In this document: one piece after another, positions 20,947-27,593 of the stretch
Position numbering within the stretch: the first letter of the stretch is position 1
How the letters are laid out: each line of letters starts with the position of its first letter
Origin: Methylomonas rivi
Lineage (GTDB): Bacteria > Pseudomonadota > Gammaproteobacteria > Methylococcales > Methylomonadaceae
NCBI RefSeq assembly: GCF_024505165.1
Contig: NZ_JANIBK010000035.1
Span: forward strand, 1 to 32,815
DNA length: 32,815 nt
Reading direction: 5' to 3'
Program-made: the position numbers and the translations under genes
The notes under the pieces: generated by a model
What the model was told of the DNA's origin: nothing
The model's input: only the letters and a program-made list of their open reading frames with translations
The model's database searches: none

Positions 20947-21037
20947 AAAAAAGGCCTAGGTCGTTAAACCTAAGCCTTTGATTTGTCTGGTAGCGGGGGC
21001 AGGATTTGAACCTACGACCTTCGGGTTATGAGCCCGA
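20947..21037. repeat. attL: left 91-bp direct repeat with a tRNA-fMet 3' fragment
   Basis: Identical over 91 bp to 27503-27593. It contains the tRNA terminator (20947-20979) and, at 20988-21037 in minus orientation, nucleotides 28-77 of tRNA-fMet, from the anticodon stem to CCA. The 5' half of the tRNA is missing here, so this copy is a scar, not a gene. It is the chromosome's original 3' end, displaced by the insertion. Confidence 0.93.
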
Positions 21038-21156
21038 ACAAAATAGGATTTATTGGCGTTGATACAGGTTGCTTTTTTTAGTGTAATTCAATGTTTTTCA
21101 TAAAGTTATATGATTTTGTGATTGTTGCAGTATTTCTATAAATTCCCGATTGTTGA

Positions 21157-21184
21157 TATAATTTGCTTACTATCTGCTTACTGG
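21157..21184 (+). promoter_or_regulatory. Integrase promoter with paired GCTTAC arm-type sites
   Basis: A consensus -10 box TATAAT (21157-21162) has a weak -35 candidate (TTTCTA at 21133). Directly behind it, at 21165-21184, is GCTTAC-N5-GCTTAC-TGG, with repeats 11 bp apart, over the expected transcription start. The same motif recurs at 27468-27487 by the other end. Integrase or excisionase binding here could both build the recombination complex and repress the integrase gene; that is inference. Confidence 0.55.
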
Positions 21185-21215
21185 TTTTTCCAGTCAGACT
21201 TTCGGGAGTAGTCAA

Positions 21216-22529
21216 ATGCGTATCAAATTCACAGCTGGCCGGGTGGAGTCATTCCAATGCGCGCCGGGTAAATCATCCGACTTTATGTGGGACACTGAGA
21301 CTCCTGGCCTAGGGCTTAAAGCATCCCCTGGCGGTTCTAAGCAGTACATCCTTCAAAGCCGACTTACCTCTGGCTCACCCATCCGTATTACCATTGGTAA
21401 GCCAGCGGCTTGGAAGCTAGATTTGGCCCAAAAAGAAGCACGGCGTTTACAAGGTTTAATTGACCAAGGCCACGACCCCCGCCAGAAAAAAGCCGAACAA
21501 GCGGCACAGGACCAAGCCGCTAGAGAACAGGCAAAGGTCGAAGCCATCCGTAACACCATTACCGTTCAATCGGCCTGGAATGAATATCTTGCAAATAACA
21601 CTGGCTATTGGGGCGACCGTCACCTGAGAGACCATCAAAATCTGTCACAAGCTGGCGGACAACCCAAAAAGCGCGGCACAGGCTTAACCGTTCAAGGTGT
21701 TCTCTATCCCCTGTTACAACTCCGCATGATTGATATAAACGCTGAGACTCTTACCGACTGGCAAAAGCTGGAGGCACAAACCCGCGCCAACAATGCCCGG
21801 CAAGGTTTTGAAATGTTCCGCGCGTTCTGGCGTTGGTGTGGGCAGCAAAAGGACTATAAATCACTGGTCGATGCACAGGCGGTCGAGAATCAAGACCTCA
21901 GAAAGAAAGTACCCAGCAGAAGAGCCAAAAAGCTCGATGTATTACAACGCGGCGACCTTGCCGAGTGGTTTAACGCTGTCCAACACCTCAGCAATCCAGT
22001 AATTGCCGCTTACTTGCAAGGCCTGTTACTCACTGGAGCCCGGCGCGAAGAGTTGGCCGAACTGAAATGGACCGATGTTAATTTCAAAGCGGGCGGCATG
22101 TGGGTAAAGGATAAGGTCGAAGATGAAGGCCGCATGATTCCATTGACTCCTTACCTGTCCAGCCTGATAACAGCCCTGCCCCGGCGCAATGAATGGGTAT
22201 TCAGCAGCCCCGCCGCTGCCGATGGGAAACTGACAGAGCCCCGCATTGCCCACAATCGCGCACTCGATGCCGCAGGCCTGGAGCACGTCACATTGCACGG
22301 ATTACGCCGCACCTTTGCCAGTCTGGCCGAGTGGGTAGAAATGCCGGTCGGTGTGGTCGCGCAAATCATGGGACACAAACCAAACGCCACCGCCGAACGG
22401 CACTACAAAAGCCGACCGCTTGAACTGTTAGCTATTTGGCACGGTAAATATGAGGCTTGGATATTGGAACAGGCAGGCGTCGAATTTGCGCAGCCCTTGC
22501 AATCGCAAGGCTTGCGTGTGGTGGCATAG
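21216..22529 (+). CDS. int: Tyrosine integrase, P4 type
   Basis: Site-specific recombinase of 437 residues. The N-terminal Arm-binding (DUF4102-like) domain is recognisable by TPGLGLKASPGGSKQYILQS and the ITIGKPAAWKLDLAQKEARRL block. A SAM-like core-binding domain follows, and the C-terminal catalytic domain has the full active site: R276 (TGARREEL), H361-x-x-R364 (HGLRRTF), a second His about 386 (MGHKPN) and nucleophile Y397 (RHYKSRP). The start at 21216 has a GGGAG site. It lies 178 bases inside attL and reads into the element, the usual position for tRNA-targeting integrases. Its target is inferred from the repeats to be tRNA-fMet. No damage is seen. Confidence 0.96.
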   Translation: MRIKFTAGRVESFQCAPGKSSDFMWDTETPGLGLKASPGGSKQYILQSRLTSGSPIRITIGKPAAWKLDLAQKEARRLQGLIDQGHDPRQKKAEQAAQDQAAREQAKVEAIRNTITVQSAWNEYLANNTGYWGDRHLRDHQNLSQAGGQPKKRGTGLTVQGVLYPLLQLRMIDINAETLTDWQKLEAQTRANNARQGFEMFRAFWRWCGQQKDYKSLVDAQAVENQDLRKKVPSRRAKKLDVLQRGDLAEWFNAVQHLSNPVIAAYLQGLLLTGARREELAELKWTDVNFKAGGMWVKDKVEDEGRMIPLTPYLSSLITALPRRNEWVFSSPAAADGKLTEPRIAHNRALDAAGLEHVTLHGLRRTFASLAEWVEMPVGVVAQIMGHKPNATAERHYKSRPLELLAIWHGKYEAWILEQAGVEFAQPLQSQGLRVVA

Positions 22530-22569
22530 TGCCTAACTACTAAATACCTAATCTCTATTGGTCACGCTT

Positions 22570-22971
22570 ATGGACGATTTACAGCTAGAAAACAGAGAAA
22601 AGCTCAGCCGGTTCTATAGTGAACTTCGGAAGCTATCGTTCCCAACCTCCCCAATTTCAATGGAACTAGTTAATTTTGTTACGACCTCGTTTGAAAGATA
22701 TTTCGAAAACGATAAAAAATCCCTAGACGATTCGTTCTCCCTAAAACCAAAAAGAGGCGCAAAAAGACTGCCTCGTGACTTTCATCTTGAAAGAGCTAAA
22801 CGAATTATAAGGCTTCAAAATGAAGGCAAAACATGGATTCAAGTAGTGGATGAACTAGCAGGAAAGGATGGCATGCCAAGTGATGAACGCGAAATAAGGC
22901 GAATAGCAGAAAGATATAGGGTTGAAATTATGGCAGAATCAATAAAGCCGGAAGATTTGTTTGACGATTAA
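22570..22971 (+). CDS. Unrecognised A+T-rich orphan protein (133 aa)
   Basis: ATG at 22570 gives 133 residues; a TTG at 22558 would add four. Neither has a clear ribosome site. The first half is helical and acidic/aromatic (SELRKLSFPTSPISMELVNF, TSFERYFENDKKSLDD). A basic linker (KPKRGAKRLPRD) follows, then a second helical part (HLERAKRIIRLQNEGKTWIQ, DEREIRRIAERYRVE) that could be a helix-turn-helix, and an acidic tail PEDLFDD. Codon usage is clearly A/T-biased relative to the integrase and primase, suggesting separate acquisition. It sits between integrase and the regulator genes, where satellites often carry immunity or defence genes. That role is only positional. Confidence 0.6.
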   Translation: MDDLQLENREKLSRFYSELRKLSFPTSPISMELVNFVTTSFERYFENDKKSLDDSFSLKPKRGAKRLPRDFHLERAKRIIRLQNEGKTWIQVVDELAGKDGMPSDEREIRRIAERYRVEIMAESIKPEDLFDD

Positions 22972-23046
22972 TCCAATTAACTAGTAGCTGGGGGTTAAAT
23001 AAGCCCAAATTACCCCCCAAGGCGCGGCACTTTATAAAAATTACCA

Positions 23047-23077
23047 TGAGTCATCATCAACAAAAATGAGTGACTCA
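23047..23077. promoter_or_regulatory. Possible operator pair before the AlpA-like gene
   Basis: Two symmetric elements, TGAGTCA (23047-23053) and TGAGTGACTCA (23067-23077, a perfect 5+1+5 palindrome), are 20 bp apart, two helical turns, immediately before the ATG at 23080. They could bind a repressor or the AlpA-like protein itself. No sequence family is recognised. Confidence 0.35.
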
Positions 23078-26742: not shown

Positions 26743-26775
26743 CTTGGACATAAACCTTCCGCACAATTGGGAGCC

Positions 26776-26794
26776 AAGGGCTTATAGCCTTTTT
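26776..26794 (+). terminator. Candidate terminator of the small-gene chain
   Basis: A short hairpin AAGGGCT / AGCCTTT (one G-T pair, 3-base loop) runs into TTTTT. It follows the 22-aa frame by 34 bases and overlaps the stop codon of the opposite-strand PEP-CTERM gene. Confidence 0.4.
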
Positions 26795-27387
26795 CGCTTT
26801 TCACGGCCAGTGAATGTCAGCAACCCTAATCCGCAAGCAAATAACCAGATTGCGGCGGGAATTGGCACAGCGGTAACAGGAATCAAAGTGTAAATTCCCT
26901 GCGATATACCTACGCTACCATCGCCAATACCACCACCTGTTTGAGCAAATTCAGTGTATTGGTTGTTAAACATTTGCAAATGGGAAAGTATGCTAGGACT
27001 GTGATTGAAGAACGCGCCGTCCAAGCGAACTATATGACTATTTGCGTCTGTTGTTACCATAGGGCCAGGATATGTCGCCCCCTGCCCTCCAGGTACAAAC
27101 ATTGGCAAATTCGGCTCATAAATATAGGTTGTTGCGGTCTCGTGTGGATAAAAACCTTTCCCCGTTACACTGAAATTAATTAACTCCCCTTTGCTCAGGA
27201 AGTAATAGGAATTTGGAACAAGGCTTGCGCTATCAATATCGAAACCGCCAACCAAAGGCCTTATTCCTCCTGTTGGGAAGAAGTTTTCTTGCTGCATCAC
27301 AATATCGTAGTGAATTAGCGCGGCTTTCGCAGGAGCCGCACCAAGCCAAAGAAAAACGCAGACCACAAAACCAATTAAATGCCTCAT
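26782..27387 (-). CDS. PEP-CTERM sorting-signal protein (element cargo)
   Basis: A 201-residue exported protein on the opposite strand to the rest of the element. The N-terminus is a signal peptide (RHLIGFVVCVFLWLGAAPA, then KAALIHYDI). The C-terminus is a clear PEP-CTERM-type tail: VPIP, a hydrophobic helix AAIWLFACGLGLLTF, and a basic end GREKRKRL. The mature part has a beta-rich, Gly/Thr/Phe-rich composition with no recognised domain. PEP-CTERM proteins are cleaved by an exosortase and placed at the cell surface. The element encodes no exosortase, so it must rely on the host's. Its position between the tiny genes and attR is typical of cargo. Function unknown. Confidence 0.85.
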   Translation of the reverse strand: MRHLIGFVVCVFLWLGAAPAKAALIHYDIVMQQENFFPTGGIRPLVGGFDIDSASLVPNSYYFLSKGELINFSVTGKGFYPHETATTYIYEPNLPMFVPGGQGATYPGPMVTTDANSHIVRLDGAFFNHSPSILSHLQMFNNQYTEFAQTGGGIGDGSVGISQGIYTLIPVTAVPIPAAIWLFACGLGLLTFTGREKRKRL

Positions 27388-27467
27388 CTCATTGCCCCAA
27401 ACATCTTTTAAGTTGTACCGGAAATCACTCGAAACGCGCCAAGTGTTGATTGATATATCCTAAATTC

Positions 27468-27487
27468 GCTTACTATTTGCTTACCGG
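27468..27487. repeat. Right-end GCTTAC arm-type repeat
   Basis: GCTTAC-N5-GCTTAC-CGG matches 21165-21184 in the same orientation with 2 differences in 20 bases. Both copies are also preceded by a TGTTGAT...ATAT stretch. This one is 15 bases from the start of the right direct repeat. Confidence 0.6.
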
Positions 27488-27502
27488 AAACCTTCACGCA
27501 AC

Positions 27503-27535
27503 AAAAAAGGCCTAGGTCGTTAAACCTAAGCCTTT
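27503..27535 (-). terminator. Terminator of tRNA-fMet (element-supplied copy)
   Basis: On the minus strand AAAGGCTTAGG-N8-CCTAGGCCTTT forms an 11-bp stem with one G-T pair and runs into TTTTTT. It begins 8 bases after the tRNA CCA. The same terminator exists at 20947-20979. Confidence 0.85.
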
Positions 27536-27593
27536 GATTTGTCTGGTAGCGGGGGCAGGATTTGAACCTACGACCTTCGGGTTATGAGCCCGA
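27503..27593. repeat. attR: right 91-bp direct repeat
   Basis: Perfect copy of 20947-21037. It comprises the tRNA terminator and nucleotides 28-77 of the intact tRNA-fMet. Identity ends at the anticodon stem (27593); to the right lies the unduplicated 5' part of the tRNA. Confidence 0.93.

Follow-up and report, generated by a model that had tools for sequence, protein, structure and literature searches.

What kind of mobile element has inserted in the initiator tRNA gene of Methylomonas rivi? The question is raised by contig NZ_JANIBK010000035.1 of the RefSeq assembly GCF_024505165.1, which was analysed from position 1 to 32,815 of the forward strand. The window is this whole stretch of 32,815 nucleotides. 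An element of 6,556 bp lies in it, in positions 20947-27593, between two copies of a direct repeat. It is probably an integrated minimal phage satellite. This reading is based on an attachment (att) structure in the tRNA-fMet gene, a complete set of core genes, an iteron origin, modules shared with other islands, and the gene slot that is occupied by a small protein, p88. The element encodes neither a particle-forming nor a conjugative gene set. From its parts we infer excision, replication, dependence on a helper phage, and packaging. An initial annotation had called the element satellite-like and apparently complete, and this description holds. Loci and genomes compared with it are given L and G numbers, respectively.

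Insertion in the initiator tRNA gene

The two copies of the direct repeat (20947-21037 and 27503-27593) are 91 bp long, 100% identical, and spaced 6,556 bp apart, which confirms the perfect repeat reported earlier. Nine further families of direct repeats are present in 20000-28500, and they are only 21-37 nt long with 70-88% identity. A chance match was rejected for the 91-bp repeat because the other families are far shorter and less alike. The att copies and the tRNA gene are arranged as follows.

20947..21037, minus strand: displaced att copy, made of the 3' half of tRNA-fMet and the terminator without the 5' half (91 bp at 100% to 27503-27593; 50 nt match the 3' part of the tRNA)
27503..27593, minus strand: att copy within the intact tRNA gene, from the repeat search and locus comparison
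27544..27620, minus strand: intact initiator tRNA-fMet (CAT), the sole full-length copy in the assembly
27506..27535, minus strand: terminator-like hairpin of the tRNA gene, within the repeat (13 pairs and a T run)
27633..27660, minus strand: consensus promoter for the tRNA gene, lying outside the element (12/12 matches, spacer 16)

Regional counts of such signals are near the level of shuffled sequence (11 promoter-like sites versus 8.3, and 12 terminator-like sites versus 9.4). The part of the tRNA that lies in the repeat runs from its anticodon stem-loop to its 3' end, and the repeat includes the terminator-like hairpin (27535-27506) too. Because the repeat holds both, insertion restores the tRNA body and the terminator each time.

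Initiator tRNAs are recognized by an anticodon stem with three G-C pairs and by the lack of a 1-72 pair. Read from the sequence, the intact tRNA-Met (CAT) shows both: its anticodon stem contains three G-C pairs, and its positions 1 and 72 are unpaired. An elongator tRNA-Met or a tRNA-Ile with a CAT anticodon was set aside on these two features, which bear out the proposed insertion in an initiator tRNA gene. A search of the assembly with this tRNA returned a single full-length copy, the displaced fragment, and three partial matches of 32 nt at 88%. It appears to be the only initiator-tRNA gene of the draft assembly (4.52 Mb in 382 contigs, 99.97% complete).

The tRNA gene lies downstream of pgk (27738-28916, minus strand). 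The G+C content is 49.2% in the element and 55.1% and 52.9% in its flanks. The locus displays the Islander signature of tRNA-integrated genomic islands as defined in the accessible parts of PMC4383910: a tRNA gene and a displaced cognate fragment in the correct order and orientation, with an integrase between them. The same parts report anticodon-centred crossovers in 2,083 of 3,919 islands, and by these counts the insertion mode of the element is ordinary. The prophages described in the accessible parts of PMC12429752 carry an initiator tRNA rather than using it as a target.

Genes of the element

Nine open reading frames (ORFs) of the element were scanned against Pfam, PHROGs, NCBIfam, and PADLOC at E 0.1.

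21216..22529, plus strand: tyrosine integrase, 437 aa (PF00589 1.2e-15; PF13356 Arm-DNA-bind_3 3e-10)
22570..22971, plus strand: 133-aa ORF with no family above cut-off; none of the 21 other loci compared has a relative
23080..23298, plus strand: AlpA-like small helix-turn-helix (HTH) protein, 72 aa (HTH_17 below cut-off)
23298..23543, plus strand: 81-aa ORF (p81) before the primase (95% in L117, 81% in L118, 78% in L207, 84% in L209)
23554..25884, plus strand: primase-helicase, 776 aa (Toprim_3 1.2e-13, D5_N 2.5e-12, DUF5906 6.6e-9)
26024..26290, plus strand: p88, 88 aa, akin to the C-terminal half of DUF5681 (hhalign 94.2% versus a shuffle maximum of 4.2%)
26287..26487, plus strand: p66a, small MSIKxRLxKLE-type protein (ATGA overlap with p88)
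26477..26677, plus strand: p66b, small MSIKxRLxKLE-type protein (overlaps p66a)
26782..27387, minus strand: cargo, exported PEP-CTERM-like protein, 201 aa (NF033554; C-terminus VPIPAAIWLF...)

None of the nine matched a structural (capsid), large-terminase, lysis, or relaxase family, in agreement with the earlier view that phage structural, packaging, and lysis genes are missing. A prophage remnant was rejected because no virion gene is among the nine ORFs, and a defence island because PADLOC gave no matches for them.

The integrase consists of an arm-binding and a catalytic domain in a whole reading frame, as was annotated for an intact P4-type integrase. The reading frame of the primase-helicase is also whole. 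It passes the NCBIfam model of P4-family primases (TIGR01613) at 4.5e-77, with 258.9 bits versus a cut-off of 108.7, and this together with its domains confirms the P4-alpha-sized enzyme of the initial annotation. Relatives of the AlpA-like protein sit between the integrase and the primase in other islands. The tiny coupled genes noticed earlier are p88, p66a, and p66b, three tiny genes that overlap one another.

The cargo matches NF033554 of NCBIfam at 7.2e-6 with 26 bits, below the curated cut-off of 80. It could be sorted, because the genome of M. rivi has two exosortase genes above cut-off. Among the 37 genomes of the genus the cargo has one close relative (87% over residues 1-188), which closes an 8.5-kb contig, next to chromosomal-looking neighbours and with integrase and primase absent there. 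The cargo is probably a passenger picked up from a host. The count of one cargo gene in the initial annotation stands as far as this gene is concerned, and the ORF at 22570-22971 may be a second accessory gene. A further gene with a PEP-CTERM-like ending is present in the host flank (10601-11422). Another island, L117, encodes a PEP-CTERM-like Lcl_C protein together with a SIR2 protein at its cargo end (14118-15752).

Candidate origin and arm sites

25887..25989, no strand assigned: candidate replication origin; its inverted arms carry paired iterons (TGCAGATA) and flank an AT-rich core (arms 19/20, spacer 63)
21160..21184, plus strand: candidate integrase arm-site pair, left end (GCTTAC at 21165 and 21176), 88% repeat of 27463-27487
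27463..27487, plus strand: candidate integrase arm-site pair, right end (GCTTAC at 27468 and 27479), repeat of 21160-21184

Satellite origins consist of iterons around an AT-rich core. The candidate origin, which had already been suspected, is an iteron inverted repeat directly behind the primase. Its arms match at 19 of 20 positions and are separated by a 63-nt spacer with the AT-rich core between them. The layout is repeated in L117, L118, L120, and L181, whose arms match at 17-19 of 20. The iteron word differs between elements and is altered jointly on both arms (TGCAGATA, GACGGATA, and GTGGAGATA in five elements). Arms of the most different elements match each other at 9-15 of 20 positions, and those of the closely similar trio of this element, L117, and L181 at 15-19.

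Both ends of the element carry imperfect direct repeats (88%), in each of which GCTTAC occurs twice at an interval of 11 bp. Judged by their sequence, these paired repeats are likely arm sites. Relatives have their own paired words at both ends (GGTTACA in L049 and L008, GGTGACA in L011). The left end of the element matches its own right end at 16 of 18 bases and eight other right ends at 11-15. The match to the own end is not always the best one: the left end of L053 scores 15 with its own right end and 16 with that of the element, and the ends of L003 and L008 match the end of another element equally well or better. The comparison thus supports the candidate arm sites of this element without discriminating within the integrase group.

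An integrase group mostly at tRNA-fMet

A scan of bacterial genomes returned 18 relatives of the integrase (54-88% identity, some partial). A tRNA-fMet fragment lies just upstream of the integrase in 11 of them, and the hosts of fMet-sited relatives are Methylomonas, Methylomicrobium, Nitrosomonas, Rugosibacter, and other Proteobacteria. L005, L014, and L017 have only an intact tRNA-Met, downstream of the integrase, and L004, L007, L016, and L018 have none. An integrase tree of 20 rows, from which L016-L018 were omitted as short and in which L005 and L014 were scored as fMet by the downstream tRNA alone, sets 16 fMet rows apart from four rows without an fMet fragment by one change (support 89/92). 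A target switch is suggested because these four integrases nest in a group with an fMet island (L050). One of the four, L051, has a flanking 70-nt repeat (99%, copies 15.1 kb apart). Judged by eye, this repeat reads like the 3' end of another tRNA; ARAGORN called no tRNA at it. By these placements, the integrase group of Methylococcaceae, Nitrosomonas, and Burkholderiales is mostly at tRNA-fMet, and one subgroup is elsewhere. The initial annotation had held that closest relatives at a different tRNA would speak against it. This is not the case: the nearest integrases are at fMet, while the four tree rows are those that lack an fMet fragment.

Integrases of at least 66% identity are present in 9 of the 37 Methylomonas genomes, that of M. 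rivi included. Matches in phage records (10) and plasmid records (74) are all below 60% identity. An unrelated arm-binding integrase in G021 (L230, 161-1393) also sits beside tRNA-fMet, and the gene is therefore a shared target. The target had been called unusual; with 11 of the 18 relatives and the G021 integrase at tRNA-fMet, this holds only partly.

L003, L049, and L050 are larger fMet islands (about 9.6-12 kb) of the same integrase group with a clustered gene set, which in L050 comprises an exonuclease VIII-like gene, RecT, a helicase, and RusA/PDDEXK. L008 (6412-16650) has three tRNA-fMet copies, two fragments and an intact one, which suggests that two islands lie there in tandem, the first with a PEP-CTERM-like gene at 7287-8015. 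Restriction genes (type ISP-like, HsdR) lie beside p88 or in an fMet island (L171, 5610-8339; L015, 12924-15734).

Modules shared with sister islands

The nearest primases are found in G032 (75%) and G025 (87-89%), both within islands that have other integrases. The G025 island (L117) is 9.6 kb long, lies in tRNA-Arg, and shares the primase (87%), p81, and the origin with the element. A 7.0-kb island in tRNA-Thr (L169) has a p88 that is 85% identical and a primase that is only 34% identical, and a 6.1-kb island (L120) lies in tRNA-His. In other words, the primase, origin, and p88 modules turn up again, with other integrases, in Methylococcales islands at tRNA-Arg, tRNA-Thr, and tRNA-His. Because the modules recur with different partners, the element can be described as an fMet integrase joined to the primase and origin of one island and the p88 of another. 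The earlier suggestion that it may define an undescribed family does not hold for the element by itself. If anything is undescribed, it is the wider Methylococcales island group rather than this element.

A set of Methylomonas islands with DUF5681 (L117, L203, L207, L208, L211, L212) resembles the element in having an integrase and a primase-type replication gene. DUF5681 and the small ORFs follow the gene order of the element, as seen whole in L117, L207, L208, and L203. These islands differ from the element in their integrases and tRNA targets, and a full DUF5681 protein replaces p88. No capsid gene was found in the fMet and DUF5681 islands compared, in a family search of selected ORFs only. 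L203 belongs to the genome of M. rivi itself (G000:C130, 1139-9398). It is a second satellite-like island with its own integrase, a Prim-Pol gene, and DUF5681, and is bounded by 60-nt tRNA-like repeats 8.2 kb apart.

p88 and its link to DUF5681

At E 0.001, a search of 251 genomes from the order found p88 in 45 (39 of 217 of good quality) and in 19 of 48 genera; in 13 of the 45, all matches are weaker (E above 1e-15). Twenty regions were fetched, 14 of which showed a p88 context, ten of them strong. A replication-type ORF lies at most two ORFs upstream of p88 in eight of the ten strong contexts. The two exceptions are L178, which is cut by the contig end, and L182, where an AAA_25 ORF lies about 3 kb away. 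An MSIKxRLxKLE-type ORF follows p88 in all ten. Longer p88-like proteins with weak matches were seen in chromosomal-looking contexts in another family of the order (L183, L184, L186, L188). No p88 was found in phage or plasmid records, and a scan of viral contigs with the p88 alignment gave two relatives (L167, L168).

What does the p88 slot hold elsewhere? In L117 it is filled by a DUF5681 protein (1.8e-11), and likewise in L207, L208, L211, and L212. DUF5681 is present in 12 of the 37 Methylomonas genomes, and similar small ORFs follow it in the contexts viewed. DUF5681 is also matched by 26 phage records. In all four examined, the DUF5681-type gene precedes a Terminase_3 large subunit, directly in three and with one small gene between in the fourth. 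Among viral contigs, the 80 loci taken from 226 DUF5681 relatives include 71 with an ORF of at least 250 aa within 2 kb downstream, six without such an ORF, and three that are too short. Terminase_6N matches 40 and Terminase_3 matches 24 of the 71 downstream ORFs; these two counts may overlap, so that at least 40 of the 71 are terminases. A DUF5681 protein is listed among phage virion proteins, with two peptides, in the accessible parts of PMC8954984. The large terminase of one record, Aeromonas phage pIS4-A (L216, 4426-6942), contains an intein-like insertion with Hint and homing-endonuclease parts.

An hhalign profile comparison set 29 p88 sequences (of 40, selected by length) against 15 DUF5681 sequences (11 of 13 from islands, selected by length, and four from phages). 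The two families matched at 94.2% (E 1.2e-7), with p88 residues 19-88 on DUF5681 columns 62-136. The match fell to 0.3% with reversed sequence and did not exceed 4.2% in 60 column shuffles, and island DUF5681 alone gave 94.8%. p88 resembles DUF5681 in the C-terminal half and takes the same gene slot. No Pfam family, PF18932 (the N-terminal DUF5681 domain) included, was found for p88 or its relatives in L049, L122, and L008. The N-terminal 30 residues of p88 are conserved among relatives. In the predicted model (mean pLDDT, the predicted local distance difference test, 77.4), the first ~33 residues would be disordered and followed by a two-helix hairpin. By sequence comparison the link of p88 to island DUF5681 is good, and the link to phage terminase partners would run via island DUF5681.

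A proposed mechanism and its rivals

How would such a satellite move? Infection by a helper phage would let the AlpA-like protein switch the element on. The integrase would recombine the 91-bp copies at the anticodon region into a 6,556-bp circle, leaving the whole tRNA gene and terminator behind, and the primase-helicase would bind the iterons to replicate the circle. p88 would dock on, or compete for, the large terminase of the helper, and element DNA would enter helper capsids. Packaging would probably be as concatemers, because no capsid-resizing gene was recognised. In the next cell the element would reinsert into tRNA-fMet, and the PEP-CTERM-like cargo may act as a passenger for the host cell surface. 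A broader proposal is offered tentatively. Minimal phage satellites of an undescribed family may be present in the Methylococcales. In them, the slot that comes after the primase and iteron origin would be taken by a full DUF5681 protein of small-terminase type or by the cut-down p88 (C-terminal part only), with tiny MSIKxRLxKLE proteins next in line. Around this slot, integrases, targets, primases, and cargo would be exchanged freely, and the present element would be the initiator-tRNA variant. Packaging would be redirected or blocked by half a small-terminase adaptor.

Several results weigh against the satellite reading. No helper prophage was seen in the genome of M. rivi, which gave only a weak phrog_2 match (5.6e-6), and Terminase_3 was found in none of the 37 Methylomonas genomes (3 of 14 control genomes were positive). 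A missing helper prophage is compatible with a virulent helper, since a virulent helper, as for phage-inducible chromosomal minimalist islands (PICMIs), leaves no prophage. Viral contigs scanned with the primase and with the origin core gave no match, and scanned with the p88 sequence alone no relative. None of the relatives examined showed a vacant site with both flanks. In G026 the 91 bp are present once, identical, in a 12-kb stretch whose far flank differs from this locus; the left host flank of the element matches elsewhere in relatives, never beside tRNA-fMet. The regulators claimed earlier are represented by the AlpA-like ORF, whose match to HTH_17 (PF12728) is weak (E 0.025, 15.3 bits, cut-off 27). 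The N-terminal part of DUF5681 is absent from p88. With only the four phage DUF5681 sequences, hhalign gave 31.9%, and with the unrelated MSIKxRLxKLE family 18.1%. A fold search with the p88 model returned nothing at E 0.001; the third-ranked match, to a phBC6A51-type domain name, had an E of 0.38 and was not counted.

That the element itself holds no helper, capsid, or terminase gene, that no helper prophage was seen, and that the viral contigs scanned gave no record of it would also suit an integrative island without a phage link. Such an island would excise and replicate by itself and spread by chance through transformation, generalised transduction, or a conjugative partner. We consider this rather unlikely: no relaxase family is among the nine ORFs, and the DUF5681 of the terminase slot recurs in sister islands of a genus with no Terminase_3 in its 37 genomes. 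An immobile, decaying island retained by chance has a precedent in G036, where a 2.6-kb remnant-like island has its integrase at tRNA-fMet. It is very unlikely here, as the two att copies do not differ anywhere in their 91 bp and both the integrase and the primase keep whole reading frames.

Another alternative keeps the satellite and changes the role of p88, which would titrate the helper terminase as an interference factor while the element is packaged via a helper-type pac or cos site. It fits an alignment that covers only residues 19-88 and lacks the N-terminal part, and a predicted chain of some 33 disordered residues before a two-helix hairpin. PMC6092414 describes phage-inducible chromosomal islands (PICIs) that have no terS of their own and rely on a phage cos site. 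On the other side, no cos or pac sequence was identified, and none was looked for in the absence of a known helper. The conserved N-terminal 30 residues of p88 could bind DNA, and a purely interfering p88 seems unlikely.

Enterobacteria, vibrios, and Gram-positive cocci supply the best-known phage satellites. If methanotrophs have a satellite group as well, phages would act on methane consumers through testable parasites. The p88/DUF5681 slot offers a marker for finding such elements and a concrete packaging hypothesis. Which parts stay together during satellite recombination can be read from the covarying iteron origins and the paired arm sites.

Comparison with known satellites

No report of satellites in Methylomonas was found in the open-access literature searched; subscription papers and preprints lay outside this scope. 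The systems below are described from the accessible parts of the papers cited. P4-like satellites (PMC8628076) resemble the element in the P4-family primase (TIGR01613), the tyrosine integrase, small size, and a tRNA target. Their definition allows at most two of seven components to be missing; psu, delta, sid, and epsilon are among the components, and none of these four families is found in the nine ORFs.

Gram-negative PICIs (PMC6092414) share with the element an integrase, a replication module with an origin, and the lack of structural or lysis genes (as scanned in the nine ORFs). In PICIs these two modules and an AlpA-type master regulator stand in a conserved order, and the candidate regulator of the element matches only below cut-off. 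PICIs are further defined by phage-dependent induction, packaging, and interference and by att sites that prophages never occupy. They are typically 12-15 kb, whereas the element is 6.6 kb and no helper was found for it. Some of them carry a terS homologue, and p88 is not a recognised terS.

PICMIs (PMC10803314) are close to the element in size (PICMI115 6,110 bp, the element 6,556 bp), and both have an integrase, a DUF5906 primase, and no recognised capsid-remodelling gene. The AlpA regulator of PICMIs (PF05930 or PF12728) has a candidate counterpart in the element, with a PF12728 match below cut-off. PICMIs are induced by a virulent helper phage, which packages them as concatemers. They differ in site and host: PICMIs use fis in Vibrionaceae, and the element lies in tRNA-fMet beside pgk in Methylomonas and carries p88. 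The PICMI primase combines DUF3987 and DUF5906, and that of the element Toprim_3, D5_N, and DUF5906, with DUF3987 not found. DUF3987 is present in the sister p88 islands L169, L172, and L173. The element thus falls outside the three groups tested, PICMIs by fis and DUF3987, PICIs by size, and P4-like satellites by psu, sid, delta, and epsilon. In its mode of action, the best reading is that it works like a PICI or a PICMI.

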